Part shown: piece by piece, positions 5,667 through 57,141 of the stretch
Position numbering within the stretch: position 1 is the stretch's first letter
How the letters are laid out: every line of letters starts with the position of its first letter
Virus record (IMG/VR): IMGVR_UViG_3300036804_000088
Span: 1 to 64,000 of that record
Source: a virus
DNA length: 64,000 nucleotides
Reading direction: 5' to 3' (one strand)
The notes under the pieces: generated by a model
What the model saw: only the letters and a program-made list of their open reading frames with translations
Database searches by the model: none
Told to the model about the DNA's origin: nothing
Made by a program: the position numbers and the translations under genes

Positions 5667-5824
5667 CCATTATCGGCAAGAGTCGGCTCAACCGGCACCG
5701 CTGCGAATTCTGCGGCTATCCGATCAAACGCGGAAAAGAATGCCGGAAAACAGGAGTCGACATGGCTGACTGCGCTCAAAGAGCTGTCCCGCCTGCGTTG
5801 CTGCGTGTGAAGGGCAGTAAATGA
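5663..5824 (+). CDS. Small zinc-ribbon-like protein (53 aa)
   Basis: The gene is coupled by ATGA overlaps to both neighbours. The product MTIIGKSRLNRHRCEFCGYP... has a CEFC knuckle (Cys14, Cys17) and two further cysteines (27 and 37) that could complete a metal site, with a basic surround. It precedes the portal gene. Function is unknown. Confidence 0.65.
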   Translation: MTIIGKSRLNRHRCEFCGYPIKRGKECRKTGVDMADCAQRAVPPALLRVKGSK

Positions 5825-13762: not shown

Positions 13763-16700
13763 TGACCCACCCGCGCGGCGGCGATGCTCACGGCGCTGAG
13801 CTAGCTACCGGTTACATCGCGCTCACTGTCAAGTACAGCAACGCGATGTCCAAAATTGCCCAAGACTTCGGGCAGCTTCAGCGCGAAGCCACCGTTGCGG
13901 GGGACCGCGCCGGGGTTGCGTTGGGCAGCGGAATCGGGCGCGGCGCGAGAAGCGGCACCAACGCGGCCAGGGCAGAACTGGCAAGCCTGCATTCCGAATC
14001 GCATGTGTGGGGTGACAGGATCGGCAAGGCGATAGGTTACGCGATAGCGCAGCCAATTGCCCTGCCGTTGCGTGCTGTCCGCGGCACCATGCACGAATTA
14101 GAGGACAGCGCAAAGAAACTGGGCGGCGCTCTACGGTCGTCGCTGTCGATAGCTGAACCTATCGGGAAGATGGCGGGCGCGGCTGCCACCATCGGCAGTA
14201 TCGGGTTCGGTCTAGAAAAAGGCTTCCAGCACCTTGAAGCCGTCGAAGAGGCCGAAGCCAGGATGCAGGCACTCGGGCTGTCCGGTGAGCAGATCGAAGA
14301 GACCATGAAACGCGCCGGGGACGCGATTAGGGGCACCGCCTACGGCATCGTGGACGTCGTCGGGGCCGCGGAAAAACTCGTCACCAGCGGCATCAAAGAC
14401 GAAGAGTTGACGCGCACACTCACCGATGTTCGTAACGTGGCATCCCTGACCGGCGGCACCATAGACTCGACTACCGATCTGATGCTGAAATTCCGCTCCG
14501 AATGGAAAGAGGGCGGCTTAGAGCTACGGAAGTTCGCGCAAGAGGGTTTGCCTCAATTGTCGGACTGGCTACAGCAGTTCAAGCATGTCGGACCTGAAGC
14601 CCTGGCCGATATGTTCAAAAAGGGCCAGGTCACCTACGACGACATTCTCGGGGCCATCGAAGCGCACACCGGCGGTGTCGCGGAGCGGATGTCGCACACC
14701 ATCGGCTCTCAAATGCACCTGCTGGGCGTCAACATCGGCAACGTCTTCGACCAGTTGATTAACCCTAGCGGCAAGGGCGGGGATGCCGGTGGTCGCGCAT
14801 TAGAGCACCTGAATAACGAACTAGGCAAGGCCGGTTCATTCCTTCAAGCCCATGGGCAACAAATTGAAGGCATCTACCAGAATGTCGGCCACGCGCTGGA
14901 CAACACCTGGCATGCGGTCACCAATGTGTGGCACGCTCTCGAAAACACCTGGCACGCAGCAACAAACGTGTGGCACGCGGTCACTAACTTTTGGCATGCC
15001 TGCGAAAACACCTGGCACGCAATCACCAACATCTGGCACGCATTCGAAAACGTGTGGCATGCGGTATCCAACGTGGGGCATGCTGTCGAAAACATCCTGC
15101 ATGCCTTGGGGATTCAGACGACCTATGTCGACAACGTCAAAAAGAGCTGGCACGAACTAGAAGACAGCGTTAAGCGGGTCTGGCATGGGGCCGAAGATTT
15201 CTGGCATGCCTGCGAAAGCGCTTGGCACATGGCCGAAAACATCGCGCAAGCGTTCGGGCATATTATCGAAAAGCTGCCTGGCTTCAGCAATTTCCTTAAA
15301 GGGCTTCAACACATCAAAGACTTTTTCACCGGCGGCGGGGGCGGCGGCAGTCCTGGTGGACCGAACCCTAACCAGCCCAGCACATGGCCCACATGGGGCG
15401 GCTTCCCCGGCAGCGGCGGGGCTGGTGCGTACCCACCCAACCCCAACCAGCCCAGCACATGGCCGACATGGGCTGGCTTTGCGAGCGGCGGGTTCGATGT
15501 TCACAAGTCGAGTGCCCACATTCAAAGCGCTGTCGCCCCATCGGGGTTGGTGAACTGGGCTGAACCGTCGACCGGCGGTGAAGCCTACATTCCTTTGCAC
15601 CCGTCGAAACGTTCCCGCTCCATGGAGATCTGGAAGCAGACCGGCAACATTCTCATGGGTGGTCGTATGTTCGGCGCGGGTGGTAAGTCCCGCCCGTGGA
15701 AGATGGACAGTGGCGGCATTCTTAGGATGTTGGCTAATATCAATAGCATTGATCAGCCGTGGCATCCTGGGGATAGTGATCTGCAAAATTTAGTTCCTGA
15801 TGCTCATGCACCATCAAGTGACTGGTTGCCGCAGTTCACAAAACCCGGCGTCGGCGTTCCTGGCGGGCCTGGACCGGGAATAAATACTTCCGGCATACAG
15901 GGCGCAATACCAAAATGGCTGTGGGAAATCATCATGCACGGCGGCGCGCATGGCGGTCACCTTAAAGCGCCGGGCTGGTGGGTCGGTTCGACATGGGGAG
16001 CTGATCCCGATCCTGGGCGGACTCATGGACTTGTCCCCGCCTACGATGACGGCGGTATCGGCAACTGGTGGGGCATGACACCGCAACAGATGTGGGCCGG
16101 AAGCGGAGAAACCGGCAGCGGCAACCTCGCATCCGTGCATTCACTGCTGGGCACCCTGACCGGCGGCACCGGCGGCAAACGCGCACCCTACGTCATGGGT
16201 GGTTTCAGCCCCAGCGGAATCGACTGCTCCGGTCTGGTCTCCGCGGTCGTCAACACCTACCTGGGTTCCAGCCCGTTCAGCTCACGCATGAGCACCCCCA
16301 GCGAGGGATCATGGCTCAAGCAGCGCGGCCTGGTGATGGGCGACGGCCCACCGGGAACACTGCGGATCGGCTGGTACGACAACGGCGGCGGCGAGATGGG
16401 TCACACCGCGCTCACCCTGCCGGACGGAACCAACGTCGAGTCCACCACCAGCCACGGGATCTCCGGTGTCCGTGTCGGCGCGCTGGCAGCCGGTGCCAGT
16501 AGCAGCCAGTTCACCAATCACGCCTATCTGCCCCTGGCGGGCGCGTTTCCTGGCGGCATGGGCGGCGCTGGCAGTAACAGTCTTTTCGGCGGCTACGGCG
16601 GATCTGGGGTGGGATTCGGGGGTGCCGGCGGCAACCGGCGCAGCGGATTCTCCGCGGGGTTCGGCGGCGCAGGCGGCGGCGACTTCAGCGGCGGGACGGG

Positions 16701-26900: not shown

Positions 26901-28498
26901 TCCCGTTCTGGGCCAGCTTCATTGACCTGGTTGGGCTCGGCGGCGGCGGCGACGGCGCAAATGGTACTGCTCTCGGGCGTGGCGACGGCGGCAGCGCCGG
27001 AAACTGGAACGGCAGAGTCATCGAACGTGCGGTCGACTTCATGGACTCTCCGACCGCGACGTTGACGGTCGTCGTCGGAACCGGCGGCATCAACAACGGT
27101 CCCGGCGTGGCCACCACGATCAGTTGGACCGACACACTAGGGCACACGCAGACCTTGACTTGTGCAGGTGGCGCGGCTGCCACGCAACCCACCTATCTCG
27201 GGCAGGCCGCGCCGATATTCATCTTCGACGGCGCACCGTACTACGGCGACATCACCGGTACCACGTTCAGCTTCGGCGGCGGCGGCATCGGCGGCAAAGC
27301 GTTCGGCGGTCCCAGCTCGGGCGGCGGCAACGGCGGCGTATTCCTGAACATGCGCAGCGGCGCAGGCGCTGCCAGAGAGATCCCCGTATCGGTCGGCATA
27401 TCCGGCAGCGGAACCCTGGCAGCAGCGGCAGGGCGGCGCGGGAATCTCACCGGCCATGGTGCGCTTTCAGCGGCAGCGTTCCCCCACTATGTTCGTACCG
27501 CGGCACTACCCGGCCACGGTGTCATATCGGCTACAGCAGGACGACACGGAAACCTGGCTGGCAGCGGCACGCTTTCCGCGACAGCCTTCGCGCGGTATGC
27601 GTGCCCGGCGGCGCTACCCGGTCAGGGTGTGTTGGCTGCGCCGATCCAAGTCAAACTGTCCGCACCGCTGCCCGGCAGTGGCGCACTGTCGGCCACAGCA
27701 GGGCGACACGCAAACCTGGCCGGTCATGGCATCGTGTCGGCCACAGCGGGCCGTAGGGGCAATCTGATTGGGCACGGTGTGCTTTCGGCGAAGATCAAAG
27801 TCAAGCTGACGGGACCGCTCACCGGTCGAGGCGTGCTGTCGGCCCCGATCAAAGTCAAACTGAAGGCGCTGCTTTCGGGGCACGGTGCGCTGTCGGCGGT
27901 GACTAAACCACCGGTGATGTTCGACGCTGTGGGGACTGGCGCGCTGAGCGCTGGCGGCAGCGGCAGCAGCAGCATCTCGTGGACACACGACGCGGCAGCA
28001 GACTCTTACGTCATCGTCGGGATTACCAGCAACGGTACGGTAGCCATCACCACAATGACCTATGGCGGTCAGCCTATGTCGTTGCTGGGATCACAGGAAA
28101 CCAATAACACCAGTAACGAAAGCACCATCTACTTCTACGGATTGGCCAATCCGCCCACCGGCAGCCAGACCGTTTTAGCTGTGTTCGCAAGCCCGACAGC
28201 CTCGGTCGGCAACAGTGTGTCGTACCTGAACGTCAATTCGGTGGGGACGGTACAAACAGTATTCGGAACCGGCACCACGACATCGCAGACGGTCACCTGC
28301 ACCAGCGAGCAGATGATTGTGCAAGCGTTCGACGCCTGGGCATTCGGCGGCTCTATCGCCCCCAGCGGCGGAACGAACCGGTCCATCCTTGAGCGCAGCT
28401 TCAGCAGAGTGGCAATCAGCGATGCCACGGTCAGCACAACATTCACCGCCGCTATCAACAGCTCCGACTGGGCCGGTATCGCGGTCGTTCTCACCTAG
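23999..28498 (+). CDS. Large minor tail / fibre protein (1499 aa)
   Basis: The N-terminal ~370 residues are Gly/Ser/Asn-rich with helices. Residues about 570-1000 hold repeated beta domains of the type ITWSHTAASGAYVIAAIEV followed by VTYGGVAMTLL. A glycine-rich stretch (GLGGGGDGANGTALGRG) lies near residue 980. About ten G-x-G-x-L-x-A units follow (1135-1300). The C-terminal ~195 residues are another copy of the same beta domain (ISWTHDAAADSYVIVGI). Probably a host-binding tip protein; the binding domain cannot be pinned down. Confidence 0.8.
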   Translation: MTNPTPLVTVPGPTPWPQTGALDGVNPPADYNPLKSNNTQIPDAAGNVAEFIATVVLQAITGLLGALFDGLCSIFGGVPITGTTQSSFLSGTQNGMDSVCNLFSGGGSTGTSGASMIAGAQGVIGTGSNLLTGDSGAINSGSGLMDGSISLLNTLCSLCTGGLGMPEQAAQRRMGRLSERARERMGLPPKVGTVTPLVSGASLVSGIQGWIATGSFHLAGDPTVLTNGHALANQAQTHLDTVTGIMGGMGTGNSMRSVLNLGTQYHADAKGLLGNPGGLGTGSPTIAVDAASIPILGPANIAHHDLIDKLFGAFTGISSTGHSPADVANAAANLAQTAQTAAQQAQVGQTYVDLMAVNSPGHHAVDPSLTATFDITSITGTTADTIPVNSTTSAIGYIHIGAAAVKSSIAWYGGGVTGLSAAFLNLFSVDPATGINTLVWSSGNIIASISTAVDWVYVSMPPVSVSQNSWYAVELAVVGSGTHTMVGLPNHWLNPNPTVFPKQLGATRNTTLPVVDTVSTYGSAALVTTDSWTQTLSALSTAMYVLLNASTTGAIPTATAKIGLTPMTLIETFQYDSTSIAFDAVGTGANASGASITWSHTAASGAYVIAAIEVAVGTPTSVTYGGVAMTLLKTQTANNNSSNGALWVYGLASPPTGVQSVIASLPAGNAASGNSVSYLGVASVGTIPTPVFGNGTSPSEGPITCPANGMIVQAFGNNGTSTGFSSPTGGTNRFIGTESSAKTSISDSSATTTFGITEGNLSSYAGIAIPLVPNAATRAGLIYVFELLTPPTGLQTISYTLSSSALVSGVGASYEGANGVGTIATNSGTGTAMTQSETATANQLVLQAFANDTGLGSITGYNQTAVAYEPGGTGHDPLFVGQAVATGSAQTFSATAGVSAPWGAVAIPLTAASYIAPNPVIGSLPSGAAAYSPNLPWLALSSENVTTQGTFAPVTIPYYVPGTYIFDIPFWASFIDLVGLGGGGDGANGTALGRGDGGSAGNWNGRVIERAVDFMDSPTATLTVVVGTGGINNGPGVATTISWTDTLGHTQTLTCAGGAAATQPTYLGQAAPIFIFDGAPYYGDITGTTFSFGGGGIGGKAFGGPSSGGGNGGVFLNMRSGAGAAREIPVSVGISGSGTLAAAAGRRGNLTGHGALSAAAFPHYVRTAALPGHGVISATAGRHGNLAGSGTLSATAFARYACPAALPGQGVLAAPIQVKLSAPLPGSGALSATAGRHANLAGHGIVSATAGRRGNLIGHGVLSAKIKVKLTGPLTGRGVLSAPIKVKLKALLSGHGALSAVTKPPVMFDAVGTGALSAGGSGSSSISWTHDAAADSYVIVGITSNGTVAITTMTYGGQPMSLLGSQETNNTSNESTIYFYGLANPPTGSQTVLAVFASPTASVGNSVSYLNVNSVGTVQTVFGTGTTTSQTVTCTSEQMIVQAFDAWAFGGSIAPSGGTNRSILERSFSRVAISDATVSTTFTAAINSSDWAGIAVVLT
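27399..27900 (+). repeat. About ten G-x-G-x-L-x-A repeat units
   Basis: Units such as TGHGALSA, PGHGVISA, AGSGTLSA and PGQGVLAA recur every 15-19 residues with linkers like AGRRGNL or KIKVKLTGP. The same unit occurs in four other tail genes of this window. The DNA words (GGCCACGGTG and variants) are similar but not identical. Confidence 0.85.
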
Positions 28499-30194: not shown

Positions 30195-33100
30195 GTGGCG
30201 GTAACGCGGATCGGTTCCGGCGCTGGCGGCACCAGCACCGGCGCAGCTGTAACATTCAACGGCCCAACCATCTCCGCTTCTGACGCCACCACGGTAATGG
30301 TGGTTGGTGTTGTCCTGTCTGTCTCATCGAACGCTTCTGCTACGTGCTCGGTGACGTGTGGTGGCGTAGCGATGACACAGCTCAATCTGACGCTGGCGGG
30401 TTCGTCTACCAGCCGCAGCGCGACCGGCCTGTATTACCTTTTCAACCCCGGCACCGGCACGAAAAGCATCGTCGTCACTCCTGGCGGCGCGACCATAGCG
30501 CAGGTGCGTTGTCAGGCTGTCGCGTTCACCGGTGTCGCCGCCACTGGTGTTGGCACAGCCCAAGTTTCGGCTGCGACGTCGCACTCTCCGACATCTGTTG
30601 TTGACGGCTACGATGTCCGCGTTCTGTGCAATGGTGCTGCTTTAACGTCACCGAACCAGACGCAGGAATATCTTGGCGGTGCATCAGTTTCCGGTATTGG
30701 CGACTACATGTGCATGCAGTCCGCTGTGGGGACTGGCAGCGCTATCAGCTTCACAGCGTCGGGGACTGCGACCACGCCGGAATCTGTTGCGGTCGCGCTG
30801 TCCCCGTTTATCGGCTATGTCCAAGGCAACTCCGCAACCCCGGCTAGTGGTTCCCCTGTCACCGTCGCATATACGGTGGCGCAGACTGCGGGGAACCTGA
30901 ACGTTGTCGCTGTCGGATGGAACGACAACACATCAACCATCAGCTCAGTCACCGACACAAAGGGCAACAGCTACCAGTTAGCTGTTCCAATCGCACGACA
31001 GGCAACGCCGGGTCCTTTAAGCCAAGCAATCTACTATGCGCCGAACATCGCCGCAGCCGCAGCGGGCGCTAACACGGTGACGGTCACGTTCAGCACGTCG
31101 GTCAGCTTCCCTGATATACGAATCGCCGAGTACAGCGGTCTGGCAACTACGAGCCCGTTCGACCCAGCCGGTTCCGGCTCTGGTACGGGTAACAGCGCTG
31201 CCCCTTCGGCTGGTCCGTTCACCACCACCGCAGCCAACGAGGTGCTTGTCGGCGCCGGGATGAACTCGAACATACTCTCGGCAGGGTCTGGCTATACCAG
31301 CCGGATTGTTACCGCTAACGACTTCGATCTGCTCGAGGACAAGGTAGTTACCTCTGCCGGTAGTAATACCTGCACTGCCGGTATAAGTGCTTCCGGCCCG
31401 TGGGTGCTGCAAGTCGCGGCGTTCAGCCACACGTCGATCAGCGTTAGCGCTAGTGCACCCCTTTCCGGCCACGGTGCACTGTCCGCCGCAGTTATAGCAC
31501 AGTATGTTCGCACCGCCGCGCTGCCCGGTCATGGTGCGCTCACCGCGTCGGCGCGGCTGTCCGAAGAGGCCAGTCATGCAGCCCTGCCCGGCCATGGCGT
31601 CTTATCCGCCACAGTCATAGCGCAATACATCAGAGCCGCAGCACTATCCGGCCACGGCGTGCTCACCGCGTCGGCGCGGCTGTTCTCCATAAATGAGCCA
31701 GCGCCCCTTATCGGTCACGGTATACTGTTCGCCACAGCCATAGCGCAATACGTTCGCACCGCGGCCCTGTCCGGCCATGGTGCCCTGTCCGCCACCGCTG
31801 TGGCGCAGTACGTTCGCACCGCAGCATTATCCGGCCATGGTGTGCTCACAGCCACAGCGGTGAAAGCTGGCCAGACAGCAGCGCCATTAACAGGTCGTGG
31901 CGTACTCACCGCAACAGCGCGACTGTTCGAAGAGGCCAGTGCTGCGGCACTACCGGGCCATGGTGCGCTATCCGCCACAGGCACGGCGCAATACGTCAGA
32001 GCCGCAGCACTTTCCGGCCACGGTGCGCTGAGTGCCATAGCCGTAGCGCAATATATAAGAGCCGCAGCACTACCCGGCCACGGTGCACTCACCGCTTCGG
32101 CGCGGCTATCCGAAGAGGCCAGTCACGCAGCGTTACCCGGTCATGGTGCGCTGAGCGCCATAGCCGTAGCGCAGTATGTTCGACCGGCAGCGCTGTCCGG
32201 TCACGGTACAGCTTCGGCTACGGCACGCCTGTCCGAAGAGGCCAGTCACGCAGCACTGTCCGGTCACGGTGCGCTGAGCGCCATAGCCGTAGCGCAGTAT
32301 GTCAGAGCCGCAGCACTAGCCGGTCACGGTGCGCTCACCGCGTCGGCGCGGCTATCCGAAGAGGCCAGTCACGCAGCACTGCCGGGTCATGGTGTCCTGT
32401 CCGCCACAGCCACATCGCAATATATTCGCGCGGCAGCGCTGTCCGGTCATGGTGCTCTATCTGCTATTGCTGTAGCCAGGTACCCCGCAGCGGCGGCGCT
32501 GTCCGGCCATGGTGCTCTCACAGCCATAGCGGCAAAAGCCGGCCAGTCAGTAGCACCGCTGCCCGGCCGCGGCGTACTCACCGCGTCGGCACGGCTGTTC
32601 TCCATCCACGAAACAGCCGCTCTGTCCGGTCTAGGTGTTCTATCCGCCACGACCACAGCACGATACGCCAGAGCCGCTGCATCGTCCGGTCATGGTGCCC
32701 TATCCGCCACGGGCATAGCGCAGTACGTTCGAACCGCAACACTATCCGGTCACGGTATAGTTTCGGCTGCGGCGCGGTTGTTTAAAGAGGCCAGTCCCGC
32801 AACGCTCCCAGGTCATGGCGTTGTGACCGCGACGGCCATCCCCCAATACAACCGCGCCGCAGCCTTGTCCGGTCACGGTGCCCTATCCGCCACTGCTGTA
32901 GCCAGATATCCGGCGGCAGCAGCACTGCCCGGCCATGGCGCTCTTACCGCATCGGCGCGGCTGTTCTCCATCCACGACACCGCAGCCCTCGCCGGCCACG
33001 GCGCAGCGTCAGCCACCGGGGTAGCGCAATACACCAGAGCCGCAGCATTGTCCGGCCACGGTGTGATCAGCGCGACCAGCACACCGAGATACAACCGCAC

Positions 33101-33497
33101 CGCAGCCCTGTCCGGTCATGGAGCACTATCGGCCACAGTTTCGCCCCACTACAAACTCGCCGCCAACCCCGCCGGTATCGGAACACTGACAGGGCATGCT
33201 TTCCGGCGTGTATCTATAACCGCCGCGCTGCCCGGCCGCGGCAGCCTGAAAGCCAGCGGTGCGCTGCCTGCCACTGCAACACTGCCTGGCCGCGGTGTGC
33301 TGACGGCGGTTATCAGTGCGGTCAGGCCGACACCGCCGGAACGTATCGCCGTAGTGGCGGCTGAAAACCGAAGCGTCATAGCTACCAGTGAAGGCCGTAT
33401 TCCTGCCGTCAGCGCCGACAATCGGACTACCACCGTAGCTTTCGATACACGAACAGTGACAACACAATTCGAAACAAGATTGGTGACAGTAGTATGA
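30195..33497 (+). CDS. Tail fibre with ~31 tandem G-H-G-x-L-x-A repeats (1100 aa)
   Basis: GTG 30195 is the only workable start near the previous stop. Residues 1-215 and 215-410 are two beta domains of the type in the 23999 gene. From about residue 421 to 1038 there are ~31 units, mostly 17 aa long, with a core such as SGHGALSA and linkers alternating AVAQYVRTAAL, ARLSEEASHAAL and similar. A C-terminal ~60 residues end with short ENRSVIA/DNRTTTV-type strands. Probably a long fibre that binds the host surface. Confidence 0.82.
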   Translation: MAVTRIGSGAGGTSTGAAVTFNGPTISASDATTVMVVGVVLSVSSNASATCSVTCGGVAMTQLNLTLAGSSTSRSATGLYYLFNPGTGTKSIVVTPGGATIAQVRCQAVAFTGVAATGVGTAQVSAATSHSPTSVVDGYDVRVLCNGAALTSPNQTQEYLGGASVSGIGDYMCMQSAVGTGSAISFTASGTATTPESVAVALSPFIGYVQGNSATPASGSPVTVAYTVAQTAGNLNVVAVGWNDNTSTISSVTDTKGNSYQLAVPIARQATPGPLSQAIYYAPNIAAAAAGANTVTVTFSTSVSFPDIRIAEYSGLATTSPFDPAGSGSGTGNSAAPSAGPFTTTAANEVLVGAGMNSNILSAGSGYTSRIVTANDFDLLEDKVVTSAGSNTCTAGISASGPWVLQVAAFSHTSISVSASAPLSGHGALSAAVIAQYVRTAALPGHGALTASARLSEEASHAALPGHGVLSATVIAQYIRAAALSGHGVLTASARLFSINEPAPLIGHGILFATAIAQYVRTAALSGHGALSATAVAQYVRTAALSGHGVLTATAVKAGQTAAPLTGRGVLTATARLFEEASAAALPGHGALSATGTAQYVRAAALSGHGALSAIAVAQYIRAAALPGHGALTASARLSEEASHAALPGHGALSAIAVAQYVRPAALSGHGTASATARLSEEASHAALSGHGALSAIAVAQYVRAAALAGHGALTASARLSEEASHAALPGHGVLSATATSQYIRAAALSGHGALSAIAVARYPAAAALSGHGALTAIAAKAGQSVAPLPGRGVLTASARLFSIHETAALSGLGVLSATTTARYARAAASSGHGALSATGIAQYVRTATLSGHGIVSAAARLFKEASPATLPGHGVVTATAIPQYNRAAALSGHGALSATAVARYPAAAALPGHGALTASARLFSIHDTAALAGHGAASATGVAQYTRAAALSGHGVISATSTPRYNRTAALSGHGALSATVSPHYKLAANPAGIGTLTGHAFRRVSITAALPGRGSLKASGALPATATLPGRGVLTAVISAVRPTPPERIAVVAAENRSVIATSEGRIPAVSADNRTTTVAFDTRTVTTQFETRLVTVV
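31456..33308 (+). repeat. Array of ~31 units of ~51 nt (17 aa)
   Basis: The core DNA word CCGGTCACGGTGC or close variants recurs about every 51 nt. Longer blocks of two or three units also repeat (for example the SARLSEEASHAALPGHG block appears several times), showing growth by unequal recombination. Copy number is likely to vary between relatives and to challenge short-read assembly. Confidence 0.92.
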
Positions 33498-52780: not shown

Positions 52781-52926
52781 GCAAGCACCGTCTGCGGGAC
52801 GCCCGGCACCGCCGCGGGTGGCACTGCCACATCGGAAAAACCGGTGACCTCTTCCATGTCTGGGTCGGACAACTAACCATTAAACCCGGCCACTGGCTAA
52901 CCGTCACACAGGAGACGCTGCTATGA
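52777..52926 (+). CDS. Small basic protein (49 aa)
   Basis: ATGA coupling at the start and at the end. The N-terminus is Arg/His-rich (MSKHRLRDARHRRGWHCHIG), then strands. Possibly nucleic-acid binding. Confidence 0.58.
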   Translation: MSKHRLRDARHRRGWHCHIGKTGDLFHVWVGQLTIKPGHWLTVTQETLL

Positions 52927-53105
52927 GCGCGCGACTGTGCGACGACTGCGGCGAAAACATCAACATCCACATCCGCAACGGCAAAGCACTCTGCGCCATG
53001 TGCCGCCTAGAGCGCGCCGGCGTATCCAGCTACGCCACAGCACACCCCGACGACCAGCATTTCGCTGACACCGCTAAACGCCATGGCGGGCAACGCTTCC
53101 GATAA
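52923..53105 (+). CDS. Zinc-ribbon protein (60 aa)
   Basis: ATGA coupling at the start. LCDDCGENINIHIRNGKALC followed by AMCRLE gives two CxxC knuckles 14 residues apart, a classic small zinc ribbon. Function unknown. Confidence 0.68.
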   Translation: MSARLCDDCGENINIHIRNGKALCAMCRLERAGVSSYATAHPDDQHFADTAKRHGGQRFR

Positions 53106-53110
53106 CTCGG

Positions 53111-53124
53111 GCGCGGGGCCGCGC
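53111..53124. terminator. GC-rich inverted repeat in a 106-nt gap
   Basis: GCGCG-gggc-CGCGC lies 6 nt after the stop at 53105. It is the start of the first sizeable gap in this gene run (53106-53211), so it may be a partial terminator. No T-run follows. The rest of the gap is A-rich before the SSB-like gene; AGGAAAGAGAAA (53197-53208) can serve as its ribosome site. Confidence 0.35.
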
Positions 53125-53211
53125 AAACCACACCAACTTACTTAGACAGGCTAGGAAAAAAGAGTACCTGCACCAAAAGGACAGCAGGACAACAGGAAAG
53201 AGAAACACACC

Positions 53212-53796
53212 ATGGATAACGCAAGCGCCGACTTTTTCGCAGGCGGCATCAAACCAGCACAATTCCCCCAATACGGAGCCACCGTCACCGGGAAAATAAC
53301 CGACATGACCCAATCCCAACAAACCGAACCCTCCAAAATCGCCGGCCAGCCCGGCAAACCCAAAACCTGGGACGACGGATCACCCGCCATGCAACTCGTC
53401 GTCACCCTCGCAACACAGGAACGCGACGACGAAGAGGACGACGGACTACGGCGCATCTACATCAAAGGGCAAATGAAAGCCGCCATGCAAGCCGCCATCA
53501 AAGCAGTCGGAGCCAAACAACTCGACCTGGGCGGGACGGTCACCGTCACCTATACCCACGACGGTGAACGCACCAACCCCGCCTTCAGCCCGCCCAAACA
53601 GTACGCCGTGCAATACGTCCCACCCAACGCCAGCGCCGGATTCCTAGGTGCCGGAACCGGAACCGGCAACGGCACAGTCTCCGCCATCGCCACCGCAGTG
53701 CAGCCCGCCGAACAAATCCCAGCAGGGCTGACACCCGAAATCTGGGCCACCATGTCACCCGAAGCGAAAGCGGCCCTAGCCGCCCTCAACAAATAA
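53212..53796 (+). CDS. Single-stranded DNA-binding-like protein (194 aa)
   Basis: The product has YGATVTGKITDMTQSQQTEP, then KTWDDGSPAMQLVVTLATQE, then DDGLRRIYIKGQMKAAMQAA and a beta segment GGTVTVTYTHDGE, ending in a Gly/Ala-rich tail. This is the pattern of an actinophage family annotated as ssDNA-binding (OB-fold-like) protein. It would coat single strands in replication or recombination. Set apart by gaps on both sides, it may be strongly expressed. Confidence 0.72.
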   Translation: MDNASADFFAGGIKPAQFPQYGATVTGKITDMTQSQQTEPSKIAGQPGKPKTWDDGSPAMQLVVTLATQERDDEEDDGLRRIYIKGQMKAAMQAAIKAVGAKQLDLGGTVTVTYTHDGERTNPAFSPPKQYAVQYVPPNASAGFLGAGTGTGNGTVSAIATAVQPAEQIPAGLTPEIWATMSPEAKAALAALNK

Positions 53797-53802
53797 GAGA
53801 AC

Positions 53803-53864
53803 GTGCCCCGCGTCCGTTAGAACAATCCACACTAATACGGGATCTAATCGCGGACGCGGGGCAC
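53803..53864 (+). ncRNA. Long perfect stem-loop after the SSB-like gene
   Basis: GTGCCCCGCGTCCG (53803-53816) pairs perfectly over 14 bp with CGGACGCGGGGCAC (53851-53864), with a 34-nt loop whose ends (TTAGA...TCTAA) can pair further. It may end the SSB-like transcript or be part of the structured RNA that follows. There is no T-run. Confidence 0.65.
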
Positions 53865-53874
53865 CACCAAAGCC

Positions 53875-53989
53875 GGGAATCGGGCTGCGCCACAACTGAA
53901 TAGGACTCCGTCTGATGAGTGGTGCTGAACCTGTGAGTCCAGACTGCCAGCACGGCTCCGCCGGCAGCCGAGAGCGCAACCCGATTCCC
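53875..53989 (+). ncRNA. Three-way-junction-like structured leader RNA
   Basis: GGGAATCGGG-C-TGCGC (53875-53890) pairs with GCGCA-A-CCCGATTCCC (53974-53989): 10 bp, one mismatch, 5 bp. Inside are GGACTC/GAGTCC (53903-53908 with 53935-53940) and CTGCC/GGCAG (53944-53948 with 53963-53967). The outer stem ends 11 nt before AAAGGA of the methyltransferase gene, so it could control its translation. It does not fit any riboswitch I can recall with confidence. Confidence 0.6.
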
Positions 53990-54013
53990 CCCACCCGCCA
54001 AAAGGATCGACAC

Positions 54014-54622
54014 ATGTACCTACTCACCCTGGACGACATCGCCGAACACCACGGCACCGACAAATCCTGCATCGACCACAACTACTGCCCCATCTACGAA
54101 AAAACCTTCGGCCACCTACGCCACCACCCCGTCATGCTGATCGAACTCGGCGTATGGCAAGGCGCAAGCCTCAAAACGTGGGCCGACTACTTCATCCACC
54201 CCGACCGGATCATCATCGGAATCGACCACAACCCCGACTGCTGGCAATCCGACCGGTCCGGCGTCTACACCTACATCTGCGACCAAACCGACACCGACAT
54301 ACCCGCCGCAAAAATGCAGCCCGACATCATCATCGACGACGCCAGCCACATCAGCGCGAAAACCATCGCCTCATTCCAAGCATGGTTCCCGCTGCTGAAA
54401 CCCGGCGGACACTACATCGTGGAAGACATCGTAACCTCCTACTACTACCGCGAAGATCTTGCCAGCCCGCATCTTTCGGCCATGAACTACTTCAAATCAT
54501 TAGCCGACTGCGTCAATAAATACGACGTCAACCTGTCCGGCACAGCCAAACTGTTATGGGACGTTGCCTCACTGGCCTTCCATCCCAACATGGTCATCAT
54601 CGAAAAAGGTGGCGCACAATGA
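54014..54622 (+). CDS. SAM-dependent methyltransferase, sugar O-methyltransferase-like
   Basis: AAAGGA (54001-54006) selects ATG 54014; an in-frame ATG at 53915 lies inside the structured leader. The 202-aa product has EHHGTDKSCIDHNYCPIYEK, motif I VMLIELGVWQGASLKTWADY, then IIIGIDHNPD, DIIIDDASHI and LLKPGGHYIVEDI. This is the MycE/ElmMII-like family that methylates sugar hydroxyls. Substrate is unknown; a glycan made by the right-end cluster is a possibility. Confidence 0.82.
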   Translation: MYLLTLDDIAEHHGTDKSCIDHNYCPIYEKTFGHLRHHPVMLIELGVWQGASLKTWADYFIHPDRIIIGIDHNPDCWQSDRSGVYTYICDQTDTDIPAAKMQPDIIIDDASHISAKTIASFQAWFPLLKPGGHYIVEDIVTSYYYREDLASPHLSAMNYFKSLADCVNKYDVNLSGTAKLLWDVASLAFHPNMVIIEKGGAQ

Positions 54623-54813
54623 AACCCGGCGTGATGGACCCCGCCCTATGGGAAGCCATCAAAGCGCTACAACCCACCAGCGGTGTGCGCGCCGCCATCA
54701 GCCAGCGCAAAACACACCCCTGCACCTGCACACCCGTCAAACACACCCGCAAGCACCATAAAAAGACAGGGCACTGCCGCCCCGGCTGCAACTGCCAAGC
54801 CAGAACCCGGTAA
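54619..54813 (+). CDS. Small basic Cys-rich protein (64 aa)
   Basis: ATGA coupling at the start and directly followed by the primase-helicase gene. The C-terminus has HPCTCTPVKHTRKHHKKTGH then CRPGCNC, a Cys/His cluster with many Lys/Arg. Probably a metal- and nucleic-acid-binding peptide; function unknown. Confidence 0.62.
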   Translation: MKPGVMDPALWEAIKALQPTSGVRAAISQRKTHPCTCTPVKHTRKHHKKTGHCRPGCNCQARTR

Positions 54814-56946
54814 ATGCTGATCCCCCGGCTGCCCGACGACGCTGAAAACCTCAGCGCCGCACTACTCTACGCGCAAGCCGGAATCTACCTGCTACCCGTA
54901 CAACCAGGCACCAAACACCCCGGCAGCCGGGTAGGCGACCAATGGCAAGACAAATCATCCACCGATCCCGACACCATCACCGCCTGGTACGCAGGCACCA
55001 GCGACGGCATCGCCTTCGACCTGGGCCGGTCTGGTCTCGTCGTCATCGACGTCGACAAACCCGACCTACTGCCCGACTGGCTGGCCACCATGCTGCACCA
55101 GACAACCAACGCGCCGTATCAGTCCACCCGGCCAGACACCCCCAACCGCGGCCACCATGTCTTCGCCCAGCCGCCGGGACGACGCATCGGCTGCGGACGC
55201 GGCCACCTGACCGGCATGGGCCTCGACGTCAAAGGCGCAGGCGGCGTCATCATCGCCCAACCCACCACCCACCCCGAAGGCGGACAATACCAGTGGATCG
55301 GCATCGCACCAGCAGGCTCCGAAATCCCGGTACTACCCACACCGCTGGACGAAATGCTGCCCGACACCGACGAAGCCGAATCAGCGGTCACCGACGCCGA
55401 AGTCACCGCATTCAAAAACACCTACACCGGATCAGCACGGCCCAAGCTGATCGGCAACTGGGCACGCAAATTCCGCAACGAAACAGCCAAAGGAAACTCT
55501 CGGCACGACACCATGGTGTCCCTGCTCACCGCCGCGCTCGAAGAGGCCCGCGCCGGATACTATCCCGCCCGCGACGTCATCGACGTCCTGCAAGAGGCAT
55601 TCATCCAATCCTTCATCAACACCAACGGGACCGGACGCCGCCTGTCCGAGACCCGCGCGGCAGCCGAATTCCGCGACATGCTGCCCTGGTCGATAGCCCA
55701 AGCCGTGCACACCCCGCTGGCCGACATCCGCGCGAAAACAGAACACAACACCGGAAACGACTTCTCGGGCCTGTGGACCCCGCCACGCCTGTCCCTGGTG
55801 CCGCCACCCGCCCCAACCCCCGAAAACCCGTCAGCGGTCGCTACAGCCCCGGCAACACCCGTCAGCGGCCCCATCGTCAACGGCCACAAACGGGTGCACC
55901 TGACGCTGCTGAAAGAACTACGATCCAACGTCCCAACCTGGGCGTGGGAATACGACGGGCGCGGACGAATCCAGCGCGGCACCATGGCCATCCTCGCCGG
56001 ACGCCCCGGCGCAGGAAAATCCAATGCCGCCCGATGGTTCGCCGCTGGCTACTCCAACGGCACCATGGCAGGCTGCTGGCAGGGCCAGCCCGTCAACGTC
56101 GCCTACATCAGCCCCGGCGAAGAGTCCCACGCCTACGTCATCAAACCCGGCCTGGATGCCGCCGCCGCCGACCCGACACGCATCTGCTTCCCCGACATGC
56201 GCGACGACGAAGGCAACCCCACCAAACTGCTCGTCGCCGCGCACCGTGATTTCCTGATCGAAACGTTCACCGCTGCGCAGATCCGCGTCGTTGTCGTGGA
56301 CCCCATCATGTCCACCATCCCCGGCGCGACCAACATCAACCAGAACAACGAAACACGGGTCCACGTCGAACCCTGGGCGCAGCTCGCCGAAGCCATAGAC
56401 GGCATCGTGCTCGGCGTCTGCCACTTCACCAAATTTCCCGGCAACGATCTCGTCGCCGCCATCAACGGATCATCGGCGTTCGGCGAAGTCGCCCGCTCCA
56501 TATTCGGATTCGTCCGCGAAAAGAAAACCGGCGTCCGCGTGTTCAGCCAAGTCAAAAACTCCACCGGCATCGAAGACTTATCATTGCGCTACGAAATCAC
56601 CACCGTTCAAGTACCCACCGACCTGGGCGGAATCGCCGAAGCAGCCGCATTCACCATCACCGGGCGCAGCGAACTCACCGCCGGTGACGTATTAGACGCC
56701 AACGCAGACGGGGAATACGAACTGGGCGGGCCGGGATTCGCCATGCAATGGCTTTCTGAATACCTGACAGAACAGGGGCAGGCACCCGCCAAACAAATCA
56801 TGGGAAAAGCCAAAGCCGATCAGGACATATCCCGACCCACCCTGTACCGGGCCATGAAACAACTCGGAGTCGTGTCCTACCGCGAAGGCTTCCCGTGCAC
56901 CGCCTACTGGCGGCTGCGCCAGCCGGGGGAGGGCTTCGACCTATGA
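54814..56946 (+). CDS. Bifunctional primase-polymerase / RepA-like helicase
   Basis: The 710-aa product starts directly after the previous stop. Residues about 15-190 form a Prim-Pol domain with IYLLPVQPGTKHPG and the catalytic DxD at Asp79-Asp81 (VVIDVDKPD), plus GHHVFAQPPG. Residues about 370-600 are a RecA-type ATPase of the RepA/AAA_25 group with Walker A GRPGAGKS (396-403) and VVVVDPIMST. The C-terminus has a winged-helix segment (DISRPTLYRAMKQLGVVSYR). It would prime and unwind at the origin, which probably lies just downstream. Confidence 0.9.
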   Translation: MLIPRLPDDAENLSAALLYAQAGIYLLPVQPGTKHPGSRVGDQWQDKSSTDPDTITAWYAGTSDGIAFDLGRSGLVVIDVDKPDLLPDWLATMLHQTTNAPYQSTRPDTPNRGHHVFAQPPGRRIGCGRGHLTGMGLDVKGAGGVIIAQPTTHPEGGQYQWIGIAPAGSEIPVLPTPLDEMLPDTDEAESAVTDAEVTAFKNTYTGSARPKLIGNWARKFRNETAKGNSRHDTMVSLLTAALEEARAGYYPARDVIDVLQEAFIQSFINTNGTGRRLSETRAAAEFRDMLPWSIAQAVHTPLADIRAKTEHNTGNDFSGLWTPPRLSLVPPPAPTPENPSAVATAPATPVSGPIVNGHKRVHLTLLKELRSNVPTWAWEYDGRGRIQRGTMAILAGRPGAGKSNAARWFAAGYSNGTMAGCWQGQPVNVAYISPGEESHAYVIKPGLDAAAADPTRICFPDMRDDEGNPTKLLVAAHRDFLIETFTAAQIRVVVVDPIMSTIPGATNINQNNETRVHVEPWAQLAEAIDGIVLGVCHFTKFPGNDLVAAINGSSAFGEVARSIFGFVREKKTGVRVFSQVKNSTGIEDLSLRYEITTVQVPTDLGGIAEAAAFTITGRSELTAGDVLDANADGEYELGGPGFAMQWLSEYLTEQGQAPAKQIMGKAKADQDISRPTLYRAMKQLGVVSYREGFPCTAYWRLRQPGEGFDL

Positions 56947-57141
56947 GTTGTCTCAACGGTTGTCTCACAGTTGTCTCAGGCGATGAGACAACCGTCCTCG
57001 CGCGCGTAGAGAGAATGAGACAAGTGAGACAACTGTTTTTACCAGGCAATACACGTGAGACAACTGTGAGACAACTGAGTGAGACAACTGCGGTTATCTC
57101 AGGCCAGATCGCTGCGGCTGCACGGTTGTCTCACTGTCTCA
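56947..57141. repeat. Iteron-like array of TGAGACAAC in both orientations
   Basis: About twelve copies, nine perfect. GTTGTCTCA on the plus strand: 56947, 56959, 56970, 57125 (and variants at 57093 and 57135). TGAGACAAC: 56984, 57025, 57056, 57067, 57080 (variant at 57016). Neighbouring copies are often 11-13 nt apart, about one helical turn. The array begins inside the stop of the primase-helicase gene. It has the form of a plasmid-type origin with initiator sites, or of a large operator. Confidence 0.88.

Follow-up and report, generated by a model that had tools for sequence, protein, structure and literature searches.

Two separate folded elements in the gap between a phrog_1911-family gene and a sugar O-methyltransferase-like gene in a virus related to cluster K mycobacteriophages

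The 217-nt gap (53797-54013) between a phrog_1911-family gene and a sugar O-methyltransferase-like gene of IMG/VR virus record IMGVR_UViG_3300036804_000088 holds two separate folded elements, not one leader. The first, hereafter hairpin 1, is an ordinary kind of gene-end hairpin whose position is conserved across many relatives of the phage. The second, element 2, precedes the methyltransferase-like gene and has one counterpart in another phage. With modest confidence, we propose that hairpin 1 acts as a terminator or attenuator and that element 2 is a separate cis-acting leader of the methyltransferase gene.

Results

Genomic setting of the gap

The window, i.e., the whole stretch of DNA that was analysed, comprises positions 1-64000 of a 66,486-base virus record. 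To judge from the genes that flank the gap, the annotated phages closest to this virus are cluster K mycobacteriophages (Weiservirinae in the records opened). The phrog_1911-family gene upstream of the gap (53212-53796, plus strand; PHROGs E 4e-55) has matches in 255 phage records, 250 of them named Mycobacterium, and the DNA primase/polymerase gene downstream (54814-56946, plus strand; Pfam Prim-Pol 8.7e-28; phrog_10729) finds its best matches in the same kind of phages. The methyltransferase-like gene lies between them (54014-54622, plus strand; PF13578 E 2.4e-07; phrog_21658). Its first assignment to the sugar methyltransferases was borne out by Pfam (Methyltransf_24) and by PDB matches to demethylmacrocin O-methyltransferase (6.5e-16) and to 3ssm (9.5e-16), the mycinamicin enzyme MycE. 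In its sequence, the protein resembles the macrolide-sugar O-methyltransferases.

The AlphaFold2 model of the phrog_1911 protein (mean pLDDT 71.9) is weakly OB-fold-like in the order of its strands and helices, with a disordered stretch ahead of the C-terminal helices. The Foldseek list for this model is rich in OB-fold proteins, SSBs included, and none of the matches reaches E <= 0.001. The candidate role as an ssDNA-binding protein, suggested by the model, is a lead only.

IMG/VR searches with the methyltransferase and the primase returned one syntenic relative only, the locus L002, which is the nearest relative found (59% identity for the methyltransferase and 79% for the primase). The primase/polymerase gene stands downstream of element 2 in both phages.

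The two stems do not form a single leader

Folded whole, the gap reaches a z of -4.75, with 0/200 shuffles as stable. The initial annotation regarded a gap of this size as exceptional in a genome of overlapping genes. This was not confirmed: 23 of 59 junctions overlap or touch and 22 gaps exceed 100 nt, counts that are a weak test since the crude gene calling behind them misses small genes. Among 12 phage records opened, the gap that follows the phrog_1911 gene measures 86-112 nt in 10, as is the rule in the cluster K phages opened; the exceptions are Amgine (22 nt) and the Gordonia phage Hibiscus, which has none.

The gap had also been described as one structured leader. This view was abandoned, because stem 1 is part of the phrog_1911 gene's 3' end and recurs there in many phages without this methyltransferase. 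Moreover, the two stems differ in their evolution, since L002 is devoid of stem 1 and keeps stem 2 in the same gene order.

Hairpin 1 is a gene-end stem-loop of conserved position

Hairpin 1 (53803-53864, plus strand) lies directly after the phrog_1911 stop. The perfect 14-bp stem reported for it was recovered in full (53803-53816 with 53851-53864, 14/14 pairs), with a loop of 34 nt, and when folded alone it gave a z of -7.68, 0/200 shuffles being as stable. It is thus a GC-rich stem-loop just past a gene end, as expected of a terminator, and its tail, CACCAAAGCC, contains no T-run of the intrinsic type. A terminator pattern scan returned no sense-strand site, with a loop limit of 8 that could not have caught hairpin 1. 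No second copy of the hairpin-1 arm above chance was found in the genome. A pattern scan using the stem-1 arm proved far too unspecific and was dropped.

Long, GC-rich stem-loops follow the phrog_1911 gene in many phages, keeping their position while their sequence keeps changing. We examined the 90 nt past the phrog_1911 stop at 51 places, namely the window, 9 IMG/VR loci, 12 phage records hand-picked for spread from the 255, and 29 bacterial-genome loci. At 39 of these, none of 60 dinucleotide shuffles gives a stem as good as the best real one. The 39 stems are redundant and form 21 groups with no 8-mer shared in an arm, a grouping that replaced a clustering at 60% identity, which had chained almost all of them together. 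The 12 misses (L002, L004, L005, L225, L230, L215, L238, L244, L245, L247, L248 and L251) include the nearest relative and Hibiscus; of these, L004, L005 and L225 still form well-folded, though interrupted, stems (z -4.0 to -4.7). Four loci from the genome search, L218-L221, stand outside the 51: L218 and L219 carry no long stem after the phrog_1911 gene, and L220 and L221 are weak matches. As a control, we compared gene ends in 11 annotated phages, where a helix of at least 14 pairs is present at 9/11 phrog_1911 ends versus 2/78 other gene ends.

The wobbles within the stems bear on the strand that is used. Under symmetric scoring, 35 G.U were counted versus 3 A.C, which favours a function in the sense RNA; counted by unrelated groups, the bias is only 9 versus 2 (P 0.065), one group counting on both sides. 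The hairpin 1 of the window has no wobble in either direction. The T fraction in the tails of the 39 stems is 0.21.

Published transcripts of a relative bear on the role of hairpin 1

Gene 65 of the phage Adephagia is a homologue of the phrog_1911 gene (E 7e-8), and the gap between genes 65 and 66 contains a 19-bp stem. According to the text of the Adephagia paper, early lytic RNA-seq gives high levels for genes 44-65 and lower or near undetectable levels for genes 66-83 (PMC11373665), a drop that is known here from that text and that may have other causes. The same text names a 17-base stem in the gene 90-91 gap as a candidate for termination or processing (PMC11373665). Like hairpin 1, that stem is long, GC-rich, placed directly past a gene end and without a T-run; unlike hairpin 1, it does not lie at the phrog_1911 boundary, and the stem named in the text is the one at 90-91, whereas the transcript drop is at 65/66. 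For a K1 phage, 19 predicted terminators are reported, their places not being given in the text consulted (PMC13402561).

Taken with its position and with the wobbles of the related stems, the published RNA-seq of this relative fits hairpin 1 as a terminator or attenuator without a classical T-run. It would end or attenuate the sense transcript at the phrog_1911 3' end and would thereby lower the expression of the downstream genes, replication genes among them. A role as an mRNA 3'-end stabiliser or processing site instead is possible but doubtful. The stem without a T-run after it would suit such a role, and the Adephagia paper, as far as its text goes, leaves processing open for its own stem (PMC11373665). 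The published transcript levels of Adephagia fall past the boundary, which speaks against mere stabilisation or processing, yet both readings predict a drop.

Structure of element 2 in the window

Element 2 (53875-53989) is built on the second stem of the gap, 53875-53890 with 53974-53989. This stem was reproduced with 15/16 pairs, one C.A mismatch and 83 nt between the arms. Inverted repeats of at least 15/16 pairs with 60-110 nt between arms occur at three places in the real window and at none in 10 block shuffles. The two inner hairpins first drawn within it are less certain, since the minimum-energy fold of the plus strand has one long interior hairpin, and the three-way form with a 6-bp P2 lies ~1.1 kcal/mol above it.

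Read along the plus strand, the 5' arm of the outer stem P1 (53875-53890; 14/16 positions identical in L002:5553-5568) is followed by a conserved, unpaired junction, CACAACTGAATA (53891-53902; 11/12 identical in L002; mean unpaired 0.83). A possible hairpin P2 comes next (53903-53940, pairing 53903-53908 with 53935-53940), in the place of which L002 has an 8-bp hairpin of other sequence, and then a possible hairpin P3 (53944-53967), where the complementary strand pairs 11 bp with G.U wobbles. A short junction, GAGA (53970-53973; GAGT in L002), leads to the P1 3' arm (53974-53989; 15/16 positions identical in L002:5668-5683). The ribosome-site-like AAAAGGAT (54000-54007, plus strand) stands just ahead of the start codon; the stretch 53999-54004, which overlaps it, has a mean unpaired value of 0.69, and no sequestered ribosome site is evident in the fold of element 2.

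On each strand, none of 200 shuffles folds as well as either member of element 2, and the two members have opposite preferences. Relative to shuffles, the minus strand scores better in the window (z -4.47 versus -2.89 for the plus strand), and in L002 it is the sense strand (z -4.70 versus -2.91 for the other strand). Element 2 is a single copy in the window's record, and no second copy of the junction or of the P1 arm above chance was found elsewhere in the genome.

Element 2 is conserved in two phages

The element recurs once, at L002:5553-5683, in the same place and gene order and before the same methyltransferase. Two conserved blocks are 27/30 and 21/23 identical between the window and L002 (48/53 together), compared with third-codon identities of 0.57, 0.65 and 0.60 in three neighbouring genes. 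The binomial P of at least 48/53 at 0.60 is 7.7e-7, an optimistic value because the block ends were picked after alignment. Similarly high conservation is also met inside the coding genes, where 31-nt windows with at least 28 matches number 36/504, 25/537 and 292/2070. Overall, the comparison establishes a conserved element in two phages.

As for its pairing, 14 of the 16 P1 pairs are invariant between the two phages and one is compensatory (A-U to G-C), a count of 1/16 that 244/500 shuffles equal in this two-sequence check; where the window has its C.A mismatch, L002 has a U-A pair. The interior of the element is unalignable. Both phages have a hairpin directly after the junction, of 6 bp in the window and 8 bp in L002, and the two are unrelated in sequence; a helix as long arises in 4.1% (0.041) and 0.28% (0.0028) of the shuffles, respectively. 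A further observation concerns L002:5541-5570, where a hairpin just past the phrog_1911 stop takes up the P1 5' arm and would exclude P1, a possible switch.

Further members were sought in several ways. Scans for the junction and both arms in IMG/VR and in GTDB genomes gave only L002 plus chance matches, judged as such by stem extension and, for one IMG/VR scan, by eye. A two-sequence model, R1, recovered the two members among 32 loci (L002 appearing a second time as L172), scored their own complementary strands lower, and produced six further weak matches (E 0.86-7); a run over 4 whole records gave matches in those of the window and of L002 only. It returned nothing in 301 genomes of one family or in 3 genomes, runs that had no positive control. 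A plasmid search gave one chance-like match, and the regions upstream of 9 other methyltransferase homologues showed no such element by eye. Nor was it seen upstream of the homologue in Mycobacterium abscessus-complex prophages, where the gene directly follows a glycosyltransferase gene without a gap, or in Cosmo, where it directly follows another gene, again without a gap.

Two side observations arose from these searches. Among 27 further loci, R1 gave a single match in L227 (phage Pixie; 1220-1328, minus strand; 16.1 bits, E 0.044), far under the 131-157 bits of the members and outside the phrog_1911 gap. Motif matches in ThulaThula, Angelique and others were set aside, as they looked like a different short palindrome. 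This TGTTGCGCCACAACA-like palindrome lies in other actinophage gaps (L157 1501-1519, L158 1501-1552, L133 3333-3348); it is exact in ThulaThula and L133 and one letter off in Angelique. It may be an operator, and its resemblance to the element 2 junction is one of sequence only.

Comparison with known RNA and repeat classes

The earlier failure to place the gap in a known RNA class was upheld, as an Rfam 15 search of the window gave 0 matches at gathering score. When the E limit was relaxed to 10 for both members, the matches were confined to microRNA models or an unrelated small RNA, all of them weak and chance-like. The Rfam 15 riboswitches (SAM, SAH, cobalamin and others) likewise include structured leaders before genes of SAM-dependent-type enzymes; element 2 differs from these classes in that none of their models reaches its gathering score on it. 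Within the window's copy of the element, CTGATGAG was considered as a hammerhead-like motif and dropped, since no GAAA strand follows it and L002 has no CTGATGAG.

The ESAS of cluster K phages are described in the text consulted as 17-bp inverted repeats with spacers of mostly 4-13 bp, present in many copies and usually accompanying the 13-bp SAS (PMC3203893). Like the gap stems, they are inverted repeats lying in intergenic gaps upstream of genes in related phages, with a function that is unsettled in that text (PMC3203893); unlike them, the gap stems have spacers of 34 and 83 nt and are single copies. No SAS with up to 2 mismatches was found in the window (0 matches), and neither gap stem combines 17-bp repeats, a 4-13 bp spacer, an adjoining SAS and several copies per genome. 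Within the text consulted of five open-licence papers, neither element is described (PMC3203893, PMC11373665, PMC12699233, PMC7302621, PMC13402561).

Repeats elsewhere in the window

Right after the primase/polymerase gene, at 56947-57133, nine exact copies of TGAGACAAC occur on both strands, where 0.4 are expected and the maximum in 100 shuffles is 2. Their arrangement suggests a replication origin or a group of operators. In the related phage L172, three copies of TGAGACAA stand immediately after the primase gene. Many diverged CCGGCCACGGTGC-like repeats lie at 31446-33255 and 27390-27905, at intervals of 60 nt and of multiples around 123 nt, and TGGCACGC-like tandem repeats with a period of 21 nt lie at 14899-15228.

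Discussion

We read element 2 as a structured leader that is distinct from hairpin 1 and would act in cis on the methyltransferase mRNA; in it, the long stem would close the conserved junction and two variable hairpins, and which may insulate or tune the methyltransferase gene. The strand and the mechanism of such a leader are weakly held inferences.

For the gap as a whole, the initial annotation had offered a riboswitch, a protein-binding leader or a stable small RNA as candidates. A more specific role, that of a new-class riboswitch or protein-binding RNA acting on the methyltransferase gene with the junction CACAACnGAATA as its recognition site, appears unlikely. It would account for an unpaired junction that is conserved within a conserved stem while the outer hairpins vary, for the vicinity of a gene of a SAM-dependent enzyme type, and for the misfit with every known Rfam class. 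Moreover, a 10-bp hairpin of L002 built on the P1 5' arm (-13.4 kcal/mol) could compete with P1, but its counterpart in the window is only weak (-6.7 kcal/mol). Against it also stand the number of members, two only, and the lack of both a sequestered ribosome site and a terminator with a T-run. Such a role is unproved, and neither a ligand nor an expression platform finds support in the data.

We consider it improbable, too, that element 2 acts at the DNA level or through RNA from the opposite strand, be it as a protein-bound inverted repeat, as a boundary of recombination or of a module, or as antisense RNA. The arms are kept as sequence, beyond what mere pairing asks for, around an interior that cannot be aligned, and the minus strand of the window forms a clean three-way junction with G.U in place of the A.C of the plus strand. 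However, L002 prefers the opposite strand, the element is not repeated in the window's record, and no sigma-70-like site was detected on either strand of 52800-54900 by a simple consensus scan for that promoter type only.

Combining these ideas, 53875-53989 and its relative might be the first members of a new phage regulatory-RNA class, a three-way junction in which the conserved, unpaired CACAACnGAATA strand would sense a small molecule or protein and set methyltransferase expression, while hairpin 1 would split the early transcript upstream; we rate this combination as distinctly unlikely, and the two sequences of element 2 do not carry the class claim at present. That translation begins at ATG 53915 and extends the methyltransferase at its N-terminus, which the initial annotation had named as a refutation of its own reading, is hardly credible: the frame is open from 53915 (235 aa, with AGGA ahead of the ATG), but L002 has no in-frame ATG or GTG before its start at 5701, and alignments to phage homologues begin no earlier than residue 3-4 counted from the 54014 start. 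A non-coding leader is therefore the best reading.

If element 2 as a methyltransferase leader is indeed a regulatory RNA, it would represent a phage-borne leader class on a sugar methyltransferase. Hairpin 1 and its counterparts provide a testable rule for a much-used group of phages: the same gene, followed by a stem-loop of changing sequence. The site of this stem-loop is where early transcripts of Adephagia fall, and it may therefore set the level of the genes behind it, those of replication included.
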